NCBI GenBank assembly: GCA_018266765.1
Contig: JAFDZU010000007.1
Coordinates: 23,210-59,004 of the forward strand
Reading direction: 5' to 3'
Source of the DNA: Bacteroidota bacterium
GTDB taxonomy: Bacteria > Bacteroidota > Ignavibacteria > Kapaibacteriales > UBA961
DNA length: 35,795 bases
The translations under genes were made by a program, and so were the position numbers. The notes under the pieces are model-generated. The model had not been told where the DNA came from, searched no databases, and was given only the letters and a program-made list of their open reading frames with translations. This document shows positions 21,934-28,769 of this stretch, piece by piece. Each line of letters opens with the position of its first letter. Position 1 is the first letter of the stretch.

Positions 21934-21970
21934 ACAAGTGCAGGCAGGAAAAACTCCTGCCTGCACTTGT
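21934..21970. terminator. Long hairpin between convergent genes
   Basis: ACAAGTGCAGGCAGGA (21934-21949) and its exact complement (21955-21970) form a 16-bp stem with loop AAAAC. It lies between the ends of the DUF58 gene and the minus-strand lipoprotein gene. Three T end the plus-strand side and few T follow on the minus strand, so terminator strength is uncertain, but position and stem support that role. Confidence 0.7.
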
Positions 21971-22003
21971 TTACATTCCTACCCTTTCAATTACACCCGC
22001 AGC

Positions 22004-22516
22004 TTATTTTATCGTTTTGCACACTTTTCTCAGTTTCTTGATGTCAATCAACTGATTAAGTTGCTTAGGTGCGTCGTCGAATGCCGTTTTATTTCCGCAG
22101 TCGCACAGTTCCACCAGCGGGTCTTTATCAAGTATCATGCCGTATAACTCGTCTAACGAGGGAACGGCTGTAAGTTGGGAGTATTCCTCATACGTCCATT
22201 TTAGGAAGGCAACGTTTTTACCGATGCCCCTATTGTCGAGCAGATAGCCCTCGTGCAGAAGTGTCGGGAAAGGAAATCCGCTACCGAGAGCGATGTCTTT
22301 GGGATGAGGGTACGACACCACTGAGGACTTGTCGTCCGAGAGCATGACCGGAACATGGTCGTTATAGTCCCTAACTGTTTTATAGACAATAGCCGGCGGC
22401 CCCGGTATGAACTGCGGAGTGAACTCGTTATCTGTGTTCTTCTCTGCGTTGTTTGCTGAGTTCTTTGTCGAGGCACACCCAACGAGCAGCAATATTGTAA
22501 ATGCAAGTGTTTTCAT
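22004..22516 (-). CDS. Bacteroidota lipoprotein of unknown function, coupled to C10 protease
   Basis: A 170-residue predicted lipoprotein. The signal peptide ends in LLVGC (C14). The mature region (about 55-165) shows YPHPKDIALG, then LLHEGYLLDNRGIGKNVAFL and WTYEEYSQL, and a Cys-Asp-Cys (CDCGNK). This looks like a family seen in several Bacteroidota, recalled from memory and not searched. No enzyme motif is evident. Its ATG overlaps the stop of the upstream protease as TAATG, so it is translated from the same message. An inhibitor, chaperone or surface anchor for the protease is inference from position alone. C10 proteases elsewhere are partnered with inhibitor genes. G+C is clearly above the neighbourhood. 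Confidence 0.75.
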   Translation of the reverse strand: MKTLAFTILLLVGCASTKNSANNAEKNTDNEFTPQFIPGPPAIVYKTVRDYNDHVPVMLSDDKSSVVSYPHPKDIALGSGFPFPTLLHEGYLLDNRGIGKNVAFLKWTYEEYSQLTAVPSLDELYGMILDKDPLVELCDCGNKTAFDDAPKQLNQLIDIKKLRKVCKTIK

Positions 22517-25086
22517 TATTCTACAATAATTTTTTTGGTAATAACACCATCACTTCCATGCACCCGGACTGCATAAACGCCGGCTACAGCTCCTGACAAC
22601 GGCAGATTGACAATGCCATTATTCACAACATCTGTGGCAGCAAGAACCAGACCTTGCAACGAGACGAGTTCCACGCGCCAGACGCTACCGGAAATGTTTC
22701 TTGTATCAATGCTGACACTGCCAGTCGCAGGGTTGGGATAGAGGTTGATTGCTGCTGCAAAATCATTTTCGTTCACACTCATGCTACCCGATTTTTCCAC
22801 CCCAATTTCAAGGAGATACGTTCCTGATTCGGCTGCGAAGTAGGGCGACACACCGAAAAGTATCGTTGTCCCACCGGGCATTTGGACGGGTGTGTCCATT
22901 ACGTCGTCGTAGGCATCCGACCATGTGTTGCCGCCGTCGGTCGAGTAGGCGAAAAGGGCGTCAAGCGAGTACGTGTTGCCGTTGCCACTGTTTGCTGCGT
23001 CATGCAGGCGGGGCTTAATTGCATAATTGTCTCCCGCGGGCAGGTTGATTTTGTAGAAATCATAGTCCGTACCCTCACCCTCGTGGCAGTTCGACGCCCC
23101 GGTATTCGTGCTCCCCGAATTTCCCGAAAACACGACCGTCAGCACAGTCGCCTGGCTCGGCTCGTTGTTGGGTTCAAATTTGTCGGCAACTAATTTTGGA
23201 AGCGCTACTGTTACGGTAATCGGGTTCGGATACGTGGAAGAGCCGGTAATAGTTATTTCGCCACCGTCCTTTTGGTAAAGACAAGCAATGTAATAGGTTC
23301 CCGGCTCGGCCCCAATGGCATCTGTTGTGAATGCCAAGTCCGACTCGCCGCCTGCGGGCAGGGTTCCTGCTTTTTCCTCGATTACTTCTACAAGTTCGCC
23401 TGCGAGAGAAAACAGACCGACTCCAACGCCCCCGGAGAATTCCGCCGCGCTGATATTTTTGATTTTCATGGCAACAGAAGCTGACTCCCCTTTGATAAAG
23501 GTTGCAGGGGTGGGTGTCATGGCGGAAGTCAGTTGGAGATCATTCTGCAAGACAACCTTAATCTCGGCGTAATTGCTGAAATTGATGTAGTCCTCAGCTT
23601 TCTTCCAGTCGCCTTCGGCCTGGCGGTAATATATCCTGACATAATAATCTCCCGGCAGCATACCTGCGATTCCGACAGTGGAAAATACAAGATTTGACGG
23701 GAAGCTCGCGCCGGCAGCCAATGACTGTCCTGTTTTTACTTCAACAAAACCCACAGATTTTCCGGTCTTTTCAAAAACCGCAGCGGCAATATCCCCGGCG
23801 AACGGCGTGTTGCCGCTGTTGGTGATGTTGACGGTAGCGGTAAAGGGGGCGCCGAAATTTATCGTAGAGGCCGAAAGGATGAGCGGTTCGCTCAGGCGCA
23901 TTGCAAGCACAGGCACTTCCACGGGTTTAATCTTGATAACTGCCAACTGGTCCGAGTTGAAACCGCCGCCACCTCCGCCGGTTCCCAAACTGGGCGGGTT
24001 TAACGCATCCAACGTAAAATAGCCGTCGGAACTGCCGCCCCAGCCCCAGTTAAAGTGGAAAAGGCCGTTATTGTCATAGCCGTCGCACACGAACGCATGC
24101 CCACCCTTTACGCCGAAGCCTGCATACGAAATCGGGCGCTTGCTGTCTAGTTCCGCTTTAAGTTTTACTTTCCATTCATCATCCGTGAAATCTTTGCGTT
24201 GCAAGCCCTCGATGCCATCGGCATAGCCGAAATACTTCTTCAGCGCATCAATACACTTAAACGGTCCTGCGCCGCTGCCCCCTGTTTTACCAACGCCGTA
24301 GCTCATGTCAATGCTCACACCAACATGATAGTTCAGGGTTGCTACGGCGTTGTTGGCGGCCGTTACTTCATCAGGCATGGCTGCCCAATCGTAGGTAGCG
24401 TCGCCGAAATTCGCCGACAAAGTTCCATATTTCTTATGGACATAGGAATGGAATCCGCTCCCCTTCGCCGGATGGTTCCAATATTTCATGATCTGTGCCA
24501 TTGCCGTTGCAGCACATCCGGTTACAGTTCTTTCTTTATATTGGGGGTCGTAGGGGCAGAGGTCGTTGTAAAACGGTGCTTGGTTCCATTTTGTTTTCAA
24601 AAGAGGTTCAACCGCAGATGCTCCGGCTATGCGTGCCGCCTGCTTTCCTTCGAGCAGCTTCTGCCATGCCGATTGCACGGCGGGCGTCGCTTGTGCGGTA
24701 TGGTTTATTGCCTGCCGAATTTGCTGAATATACCCTTCGAACCATTTAGCAGCATTTTCCGGGATGTTGTCCGGGTTGAAACTCCCTTCGGTTGAATAAC
24801 CCAGAATGGGAGCTATAGCGTCGTCGCCTGCAACGATGACAAAACCCGAAGGCGCGTTAAAAATATAGAAATACGCCTTATTTTGGGCCGCTTGTAAGTT
24901 CTGTAATTTAGATGCAGCGGTGTAGGCAAGCGTGAGAGATGCAAGACGCTTAGAAGAAGCGTCGGAAATGCGGGAAGATAAAAAATACTGCCCTGCCTGC
25001 TTGGCAGTGCTAACACCGACCTGCTTTGCAGTGACCGAAAATACAGTCATTGTAAGCAGTACCAAAAGAGTACATAGTTTTTTCAT
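22516..25086 (-). CDS. C10 (streptopain-like) cysteine protease with T9SS sorting signal
   Basis: An 856-residue secreted protease. The start is set at the ATG with codon 25084-25086, giving a signal peptide at 1-20 (MKKLCTLLVLL). An upstream in-frame extension of 25 codons is not signal-like. Residues of about 20-150 are a Spi-type propeptide/inhibitor domain. The C10 catalytic domain (about 160-400) shows the nucleophile in TVTGCAATAMAQIMKYWNHP (C191) and the base in GGHAFVCDGYD (H330), then FHFNWGWGGSSDGYF. Two CARDB-like beta-sandwiches, a PPC-like domain (EPNNEPSQA) and a T9SS sorting tail (LYPNPATGSVSIDT) follow. It is the same class as SpeB and Prevotella interpain A. G+C of sampled lines is about 60 percent against about 40 in neighbours. 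Confidence 0.92.
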   Translation of the reverse strand: MKKLCTLLVLLTMTVFSVTAKQVGVSTAKQAGQYFLSSRISDASSKRLASLTLAYTAASKLQNLQAAQNKAYFYIFNAPSGFVIVAGDDAIAPILGYSTEGSFNPDNIPENAAKWFEGYIQQIRQAINHTAQATPAVQSAWQKLLEGKQAARIAGASAVEPLLKTKWNQAPFYNDLCPYDPQYKERTVTGCAATAMAQIMKYWNHPAKGSGFHSYVHKKYGTLSANFGDATYDWAAMPDEVTAANNAVATLNYHVGVSIDMSYGVGKTGGSGAGPFKCIDALKKYFGYADGIEGLQRKDFTDDEWKVKLKAELDSKRPISYAGFGVKGGHAFVCDGYDNNGLFHFNWGWGGSSDGYFTLDALNPPSLGTGGGGGGFNSDQLAVIKIKPVEVPVLAMRLSEPLILSASTINFGAPFTATVNITNSGNTPFAGDIAAAVFEKTGKSVGFVEVKTGQSLAAGASFPSNLVFSTVGIAGMLPGDYYVRIYYRQAEGDWKKAEDYINFSNYAEIKVVLQNDLQLTSAMTPTPATFIKGESASVAMKIKNISAAEFSGGVGVGLFSLAGELVEVIEEKAGTLPAGGESDLAFTTDAIGAEPGTYYIACLYQKDGGEITITGSSTYPNPITVTVALPKLVADKFEPNNEPSQATVLTVVFSGNSGSTNTGASNCHEGEGTDYDFYKINLPAGDNYAIKPRLHDAANSGNGNTYSLDALFAYSTDGGNTWSDAYDDVMDTPVQMPGGTTILFGVSPYFAAESGTYLLEIGVEKSGSMSVNENDFAAAINLYPNPATGSVSIDTRNISGSVWRVELVSLQGLVLAATDVVNNGIVNLPLSGAVAGVYAVRVHGSDGVITKKIIVE

Positions 25087-25143
25087 AAACGTACACCTTA
25101 AATATGAATAAAATGAATATAATTGTTCGTCAGCCCCAAAAAC

Positions 25144-25182
25144 ACTAAGTCGAATCTGCACCCCCTAAGCTAACGACTTAGT
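25144..25182. repeat. Inverted repeat upstream of the C10 protease
   Basis: ACTAAGTCG (25144-25152) and CGACTTAGT (25174-25182) are perfect 9-bp arms with a 21-base spacer. The position, 58 to 96 bases upstream of the protease start, fits an operator or a 5-prime leader hairpin. No regulator can be named. Confidence 0.55.
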
Positions 25183-25413
25183 CACAATATAAAAAAAAAA
25201 ATGTAAAATGAAATATTTGAAATTTAGGCAAGGCATTCTAAGAATCTAAGAAGTTTTTATTAACTATCCAAAATAAATAAAGTTTTAAACATTCTACTAA
25301 AGTTATATTAAGCAGGTTCTTCTAATATAATTTTAAGCCAAAAGTCAACTTAAAATCTTCCTCGAATTGTATTTTTCAAACAGAGTATATGCGTCTTTCC
25401 ATAGTAAAATTGC

Positions 25414-25421
25414 TATTTTTG
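25414..25421 (+). promoter_or_regulatory. Candidate -7 element TATTTTTG before aldolase
   Basis: It matches TAnnTTTG and lies 54 bases upstream of the start at 25476. No TTG is found at 19 bases upstream. Confidence 0.28.
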
Positions 25422-25475
25422 TATCATAGCTTATATTGTTACAATTCGACCTCACTTTATTGAAAGGAAAATTAT

Positions 25476-26612: not shown

Positions 26613-28769
26613 ATGAAAAAGTATTTGTCGTTTCTTCTTGTAAGTGTATATTTATTATGCACTTTAGACAGCAAAGCATATAATACTCTGCAAGTTCAAG
26701 ATGTTAAGTCAACTTGGAGAGTAGACAGAGGTTCAATTGATGCCGCTGTTCTGACCGTGAAACCCTCTGGCGCGTATTTTGAATATGGACTTTACCTAAC
26801 CTTTTCCTCAAAAGGAACCACACTAATCCAAAGTAGTGATACCCTCGAAATTCAATATTTTTTTGATTTGAATCCCAATTCAATTATGATTGACTCGTGG
26901 CTTTGGGTGGATGATACCATCGTGAAAGCTTTGCTCATAGACAAAGGTCAAGCACGACAAATCTATGAAGGCATTGTAAATCGCCGTAAAGACCCGTCAA
27001 TTCTCTATAAAAACTCTCAAACTCGCTATGAATATCGAATATTTCCGCTTGCAGGTTCGTCCTCTCGCAGGGTTAAAATTACGTGGCTTCAGCCGGCAAA
27101 TTGGTCAACAAAAACAGTTTCAGCACAGCTTCCAACTAATATGATGCTCGATTCTAAAACTCTGCTGAGTAAATTACGAGTAATTGCTCTGACAGATTCA
27201 AAATGGGCAGATCCTACGCTATCTGCTTCCGGCTATACGTTTGCGGACGTAGATGACCCATTCTATGGAAAAGGCAAGGAAGTTTATATTAACAGCCAAA
27301 ATTACTCTTCCCTTCCTTCCATTCAATATACAAGCCCTCTCCAAAATGGATTCTATCTGCAAGCATATGAAGATGTTCCTAATGAAGGATATTATCAGCT
27401 AATCATGCTGACAAAACAAGCAGTTGACATTACTACCAAGAAAAAAACACTTTTCATAGTTGATTATGATGTAAGTCAAACGTCTCTGAGCAGAAAAGAT
27501 GTTCTTGCTGAACTCCAAACTGCCATTCTAAATAATTATGCCGCAAAAGATTCATTTAATATTCTTTTCTCGAATAGTACGGTGCAACCTGTTTCTGAAA
27601 AGTGGATTAGCGGAAGTCCTGAAAATATTAATGCATTATTTAATTCGATAAAAGAAGAGCAATTGTCGTTGTATTCGTATTTACAATTATCACTGCCCGC
27701 CGGGTTTAGATTCTTAAAAAAAGACTCACAGAAATCAAATATTGTTCTTATTTCAAATTCCGACGGATTGGGAAATTATAAAATTGCTAATCCTTTGATA
27801 GAAGAAATTTCTGCAATTGATTATAGTCCGCAAGTAAACTGTCTTGATTATTCGACCAATCGGCGATCGTACTACCAAAATTCAACGAATTATGTGGGAA
27901 ATTTCTATTTATATGATTATTTGGTGAAATGGTCAGGCGGATATTATCTCGATGCAGCGAAACCTGTAGTTCCTCTATCATCAGCCATTTCTTCATTAGT
28001 AAATACTTCTGAAGGAAAAATACAATCACTCGAATTATATACAACTCTCGCTGATGGATTCTGTTATGGACGATACGACCAAGTATCCACACAAGCCCAA
28101 AAAGATGCAGGAATAGTATTTCAAGTAGGCCGTTATTACGGCAAACTTCCGGTTATTGTGCGGGCTACGGGATTTTATCAAGATAAACCATTCAGTAAAG
28201 AAGTGAGTTTTAATGTTACGCCTGATGTTGACTCACTTAAAATTACCCGAAGAATTTGGAATGGAAATTATATTTATAAAATGGAAACCGGCACAGTTAC
28301 TAATGATGTAATTAAGGAAATTATTGATGTAAGCCGAAGGAATCGAGTGCTGTCGCTCTATACTGCTTTTCTGGCACTCGAACCATGGCTGATGCCAAAG
28401 GATAACTACTACTTCTATATTCCCGAAAAAGAAAAAGATGGGACTGGCGGCTCTAATGATGTTAATGAATCTATAATCGTTAATGGTAGTGATATTGTTC
28501 ACATAAAAGCGTTCCCAAATCCATTTACGACAAGTTTGCAAATTGAATGTAACGAACTTGCTCACGGTGTTAAAATTACATCAGTTGAAATTTATAACTC
28601 AATTGGAAACTTAGTAAAAATATTGGCGAGTGACGGGTTAGGCGAAGCTAAAAACTTGCAATGGCTTGGTGATGATAATTCAGGTGCGTCAGCTCCAAAC
28701 GGAATGTATGTAGTTGTTGTAAAAACCACAATGGGCCCTATTCGCTTTAATGTAGTCTTAAATAGGTAA
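26613..28769 (+). CDS. VIT-domain secreted protein with degenerate vWA and T9SS sorting signal
   Basis: A 718-residue exported protein. Residues 1-22 form a signal peptide. Residues of about 25-165 resemble a VIT (vault / inter-alpha-trypsin) domain, with LLIDKGQARQIYEGIVNRRK and YEYRIFPLAGSSSRRVKITW. About 265-400 looks like a vWA fold (KKTLFIVDYDVSQTSLSRKD), but the metal-site DxSxS is replaced by DYDVS, so metal binding may be lost. The tail from KAFPNPFTTSLQIE is a T9SS sorting domain, ending VVLNR. VIT-vWA proteins are usually surface or matrix proteins, and no enzyme site is visible. It is flanked by terminators and is probably a single-gene unit. Confidence 0.83.
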   Translation: MKKYLSFLLVSVYLLCTLDSKAYNTLQVQDVKSTWRVDRGSIDAAVLTVKPSGAYFEYGLYLTFSSKGTTLIQSSDTLEIQYFFDLNPNSIMIDSWLWVDDTIVKALLIDKGQARQIYEGIVNRRKDPSILYKNSQTRYEYRIFPLAGSSSRRVKITWLQPANWSTKTVSAQLPTNMMLDSKTLLSKLRVIALTDSKWADPTLSASGYTFADVDDPFYGKGKEVYINSQNYSSLPSIQYTSPLQNGFYLQAYEDVPNEGYYQLIMLTKQAVDITTKKKTLFIVDYDVSQTSLSRKDVLAELQTAILNNYAAKDSFNILFSNSTVQPVSEKWISGSPENINALFNSIKEEQLSLYSYLQLSLPAGFRFLKKDSQKSNIVLISNSDGLGNYKIANPLIEEISAIDYSPQVNCLDYSTNRRSYYQNSTNYVGNFYLYDYLVKWSGGYYLDAAKPVVPLSSAISSLVNTSEGKIQSLELYTTLADGFCYGRYDQVSTQAQKDAGIVFQVGRYYGKLPVIVRATGFYQDKPFSKEVSFNVTPDVDSLKITRRIWNGNYIYKMETGTVTNDVIKEIIDVSRRNRVLSLYTAFLALEPWLMPKDNYYFYIPEKEKDGTGGSNDVNESIIVNGSDIVHIKAFPNPFTTSLQIECNELAHGVKITSVEIYNSIGNLVKILASDGLGEAKNLQWLGDDNSGASAPNGMYVVVVKTTMGPIRFNVVLNR

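Follow-up and report, generated by a model that had tools for sequence, protein, structure and literature searches.

A lipoprotein family of undescribed type encoded directly beside type IX-exported C10 proteases in Bacteroidota

Genes of a small lipoprotein family in the Bacteroidota are coupled, far beyond chance, to C10 protease genes, and the lipoprotein is probably a partner of the proteases. The pair was analysed in a 35,795-nucleotide stretch of DNA (the window), and homologues were compared across genomes. By sequence comparison the lipoproteins form a new family within a known kind of gene arrangement. The C10 proteases that Bacteroidota make are related to streptopain and interpain.

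Results

A two-gene unit in the window

The features of the unit are listed below in the direction of its transcription.

25087..25475, no strand assigned: divergent intergenic region of 389 bp, presumed location of the operon promoter (gene layout)
22516..25086, minus strand: gene for a C10 protease zymogen of 856 aa (ORF and domain searches)
22514..22518, minus strand: TAATG stop/start overlap coupling protease and lipoprotein (sequence; spacing of -4, -1 or +3 kept in relatives)
22004..22516, minus strand: gene for a lipoprotein of 170 aa, undescribed family (ORF and alignments)
21934..21979, minus strand: hairpin with a long, perfect stem, CAAGTGCAGGCAGGA...TCCTGCCTGCACTTG, immediately 3' of the lipoprotein gene (fold z = -5.6)

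The protease gene runs from an ATG at 25086 to a stop at 22516-22518, and the last A of this stop also serves as the A of the lipoprotein ATG; both reading frames and their overlap are present as originally predicted. The hairpin is very stable but has no long U-run on the minus strand, and the terminator scan did not pick it up; we infer that it is the likely transcription end of the unit. With this hairpin directly behind the lipoprotein gene, the pair is probably a closed operon. The promoter scan was of the sigma-70 type, and Bacteroidota-type promoters lie outside its coverage. The protease is the sole C10 gene of its genome, where the lipoprotein is also single-copy. Near the operon, on the plus strand (26613-28769), lies a gene for a 718-aa exported protein with an apparent T9SS-type C-terminal tail.

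By its domain content, the protease is a C10 peptidase (streptopain family) with an inhibitory pro-domain. A signal peptide is followed by an I69 pro-domain (aa 20-123; PF13734, 73.7 bits), Peptidase_C10 (aa 167-357; PF01640, 213.5 bits against a cut-off of 26) and Por_Secre_tail (aa 782-855), all three matched above the curated Pfam cut-offs; among solved structures, streptopain and interpain A are the closest to it. The T9SS type A sorting domain was recognised by both TIGR04183 and PF18962, again above cut-off, and the T9SS channel SprA was found in the organism's own genome; tail and channel together identify the protease as a T9SS type A substrate. The earlier description of a T9SS-tailed, streptopain-like protease with a pro-domain was thereby borne out, while its accessory domains fared differently. 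A PPC-like stretch could be seen at aa 674-759, but its score stayed under the curated cut-off, and the CARDB-like domain was not detected in the window protease (CARDB was matched in 2 of the 32 partner proteases).

Sequence features of the lipoprotein family

The window lipoprotein consists of a signal peptide with a lipobox (LLLVG followed by C14), a flexible linker of about 25 aa and a conserved domain of about 125 aa. The lipobox cysteine after the signal peptide classes it as an outer-membrane lipoprotein. In the family the conserved domain follows the pattern VYKT..DY..V.....SYP..D......LDNRG.....F...TYEEY, and residues invariant in the alignment of 44 relatives include Y45, Y69, D74, P84, L87, L93, D94, G97 and Y112. 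Members are 155-290 aa long, with a linker that reaches about 140 aa in G622/G606. A low-complexity charged linker of about 120-140 aa separates the lipid anchor from the conserved domain at two loci (L082:301-1152 and L083:305-1093).

Searches of Pfam and NCBIfam with the window lipoprotein and 43 aligned relatives returned nothing beyond lipoprotein-leader or chance-level scores, in keeping with its original designation as an uncharacterised lipoprotein. A profile search against all PDB chains gave weak matches only, with no convincing solved structure and with no known inhibitor chain and no staphostatin among them. The top match was to the mitochondrial ribosomal protein mL42 (E 0.005, profile positions 45-86, corresponding to about aa 50-90 of the window protein); when 14 carrier genomes were searched in reverse with PF10210, the lipoprotein loci were not recovered, and the match is therefore treated as one that probably arose by chance. 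An origin in the I69 pro-domain was likewise rejected, as hhalign against the pro-domains gave a probability of 0.1% and there was no Pfam match either. AlphaFold2 models built from a six-sequence input were poor for both the full-length protein and the mature domain (pLDDT 39 and 41), and the lipoprotein tree was weakly resolved. Viral contigs and plasmids contained no relative at the sensitivity used.

A simple lipobox pattern was found in 36 of 46 relatives, the rest being partly truncated or narrow misses. Ordinary signal peptides take its place in L004, L005 and L007/G008, so membrane anchoring is not conserved. To assess on which side of the membrane the protein lies, we applied a published rule, in which the minimal surface-export signal of Capnocytophaga is K-(D/E)2 or Q-A-(D/E)2 near the lipidated cysteine, acidic export motifs being found in Bacteroides and Flavobacterium as well (PMC5080379). 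None of the 36 lipobox-bearing relatives had two or more acidic residues at positions +2 to +7, where basic residues are common. As no acidic export signal lies near the lipidated cysteine, the lipoprotein is predicted to face the periplasm.

Linkage with C10 proteases across genomes

About 39 of the approximately 48 relatives with readable neighbours, pooled over two orders and loci from other assemblies, directly adjoin a C10 protease. Among 123 genomes of the window's order, 8 carry the lipoprotein and 19 carry C10 proteases; seven of the eight lipoprotein genes lie directly beside a C10 gene, and in the remaining carrier (G044) no C10 was detected. A second order was sampled with 398 genomes, of which 37 have the lipoprotein and 62 have C10 proteases. 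Here C10 genes occurred in 33 of the 37 lipoprotein carriers as compared to 29 of the 361 other genomes (Fisher p ~1e-26, uncorrected for relatedness among genomes). About 30 of the 35 readable loci of this order are adjacent to C10, with the protease immediately upstream in 25 of 30 inspected; G510, G513, G606, G622 and G637 belong to the C10-adjacent class as well, placed there by coordinates. The pair is also present in other Bacteroidetes assemblies (L004 and L005).

The lipoprotein gene usually lies 3' of the protease gene, mostly at a spacing of -4, -1 or +2 to +4 nt; in one case (L007/G008) the order is reversed. The gene beyond the pair on the downstream side belonged to 27 families among 28 pairs, which indicates that the pair persists amid changing surroundings and is not borne by general synteny. 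The original prediction had made the idea of a protease partner dependent on where the homologues lie; they are mostly directly beside C10 genes, and the idea is well supported by this adjacency.

Four relatives had appeared to lie beside PKD proteins other than C10 proteases; the full genes encode C10 proteases. At one locus (G617, L079:678-3297) the partner protease is split into two ORFs by a frameshift or sequence error, and the lipoprotein is intact. The gene following the lipoprotein in several g227 genomes (L022, L024, L027) resembles, by eye, prolipoprotein diacylglyceryl transferase (Lgt).

Partner proteases, detached lipoproteins and unpartnered C10 genes

All 32 partner proteases examined combine I69, C10 and Por_Secre_tail domains, and the catalytic C191 and H330 are invariant across them. 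Their middle regions differ, being CARDB/PPC-like in many and composed of PKD and Ig domains in genus g247. Given constant I69, C10 and T9SS-tail parts and a variable middle, a shared target would most simply be the zymogen or catalytic part, or the export route. In a quick tree, the partnered proteases were spread over several C10 clades, with 9 label changes, at least 5 of them forced by well-supported branches; those of g247 fall in a clade otherwise made up mostly of unpartnered paralogues.

Detached lipoproteins were found in G575, G631, G621, L002, L003 and L006, in genomes with 6, 7, 6, 9, 8 and 3 C10 genes, respectively. Only G044, G611 and G853 have the lipoprotein in a nearly complete assembly with no C10 protease detected. 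There is one lipoprotein per genome irrespective of the C10 count, even where seven C10 genes are present. The detached copies and the single lipoprotein amid many C10 genes speak for a protein that works in trans on C10 proteases as a class, and against a fixed pairing of one inhibitor with one enzyme; from gene content, the lipoprotein appears to act on the class and not on one cognate protease. Most C10 proteases have no neighbour of this family, so a C10 enzyme does not depend on the partner, and the other C10 genes that were inspected showed no alternative small lipoprotein and no small exported neighbour of such a kind.

Two further C10 loci were recorded. In G865 (L161:2527-5099), a C10 gene overlaps by 4 nt an exported gene that looks thioredoxin-like by eye, possibly another C10 helper. 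G089 (L090, L091) contains nine C10 genes, some of them in tandem, and ASH/HYDIN-like Ig domains occur in them; the lipoprotein family is absent from this genome.

Comparison with known protease-inhibitor systems

The Bfi/Bti proteins of Bacteroides are small exported proteins, often lipoproteins, whose genes lie within a few bases of a C10 gene, on its 3' or 5' side, and are co-transcribed with it; they are 116-138 aa long, predicted to be mostly beta, likened to staphostatins and proposed to be inhibitors that guard the periplasm (PMC2873492, PMC3462683). The window lipoprotein is likewise small, exported and encoded beside a C10 protease gene. As described, Bfi/Bti typically occur one per protease and beside lipoprotein-type C10 proteases, and by these descriptions we set them apart from the present family, which is 155-290 aa long, often has one copy in a genome with many C10 genes, and is partnered with T9SS-tailed proteases in 32 of 32 cases examined.

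KLIKK proteases are metallo- and serine proteases exported by the T9SS. In Tannerella forsythia, their genes are preceded by those of the potempins, small lipoproteins reported to inhibit their own partner specifically (PMC7296668). The likeness lies in a small lipoprotein gene directly beside that of a T9SS-exported protease; the potempins' place before KLIKK genes and their partner specificity distinguish them by description, and no inhibitor was among the PDB profile matches of the present family.

The original expectation that C10 proteases can be neighboured by inhibitors of other folds holds for Bfi/Bti in Bacteroides but not for Spi of Streptococcus pyogenes, which is a propeptide analogue (PMC2873492). 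The SpeB-Spi pair shares with the window an inhibitor gene (here a candidate one) beside a C10 gene, as well as the protease fold and the I69 pro-domain; it differs in that the lipoprotein family shows no relation to I69 pro-domains by hhalign. Staphopain (C47) and staphostatin provide another case, in which a papain-fold protease has the gene of a small inhibitor next to its own. Staphostatins are thought to act in the cytoplasm, and on a protease family other than C10; none was among the PDB profile matches, a difference at the sequence level that leaves fold likeness aside. In its arrangement, then, the lipoprotein resembles Bfi/Bti and the potempins; in sequence, the comparisons made linked it to no known inhibitor.

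Discussion

The most likely role of the lipoprotein, to which we would give about an even chance, is that of a periplasm-facing inhibitor or guard of the C10 zymogen; this reading draws on the analogy with Bfi/Bti and potempins and on the passage of the zymogen through the periplasm. The protease would be made as a Sec-exported zymogen and would have to pass through the periplasm before its release by the type IX system. The lipoprotein, fixed by its lipid to the periplasmic side of the outer membrane, would carry its one conserved domain on the linker; this domain may bind the pro-domain or catalytic part of C10 proteases, and could block or silence molecules activated too early, until they are exported. 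A more far-reaching version is that the lipoproteins are inhibitors of a new family, with no sequence kinship to I69, staphostatins or potempins, and that a single one guards every T9SS-bound C10 zymogen of the cell and can re-pair between C10 paralogues in the course of evolution; we put it forward tentatively, as a possibility short of probable.

Several observations weigh against inhibition. The lipoprotein shows no sequence relation to Spi and I69 by hhalign and drew no known inhibitor chain in the PDB profile search, the protease already has an inhibitory pro-domain of its own, most C10 proteases are without such a neighbour, and three carriers have no detected C10. Known bacterial inhibitors usually occur one per protease. 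One lipoprotein gene per genome, even with seven proteases, would also be explained by a maturation or export factor, that is, an outer-membrane lipoprotein that folds or stabilises C10 zymogens, hands them to the type IX translocon or aids their activation after export. Such a factor fits the single gene in genomes with up to nine C10 genes at least as well as an inhibitor does; it would also be consistent with partners that are all T9SS substrates by their tails and vary in their accessory domains, and with a start/stop overlap that would yield near-equal amounts of both proteins. We nevertheless consider it rather unlikely: many T9SS C10 proteases belong to genomes that have no such lipoprotein, and are presumably exported there, and the small lipoproteins reported next to secreted proteases have until now been shown or proposed to be inhibitors (PMC3462683, PMC7296668).

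An additional scenario is a surface tether, adaptor or receptor that keeps the protease or its cleaved products at the outer membrane. The lipobox of most members and the long linkers of G622/G606 would suit it; the lack of an acidic export motif in all 36 members, the ordinary signal peptides of G008, L004 and L005, and the type A tail, which already gives the protease a surface fate of its own, make it improbable, and we disfavour it. There is also a small chance that the lipoprotein is a functionally separate exported protein that is co-regulated with the protease and merely shares its operon. Operon membership by itself is no proof of interaction, and three carriers are without a C10 gene; on the other hand, the pair stays together in 27 different neighbourhoods and in both gene orders (L007), the pairing involves C10 proteases of several clades, and nearly every carrier also has C10 (p ~1e-26, relatedness uncorrected).

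To our knowledge, little has been established about the way in which Bacteroidota that make C10 proteases shield themselves from them during type IX export. A conserved and so far undescribed partner family would offer a direct handle on this self-protection, and may be a source of new cysteine-protease inhibitors. Its association with C10 proteases would, moreover, give annotation pipelines a basis for naming a family that now matches no curated model.
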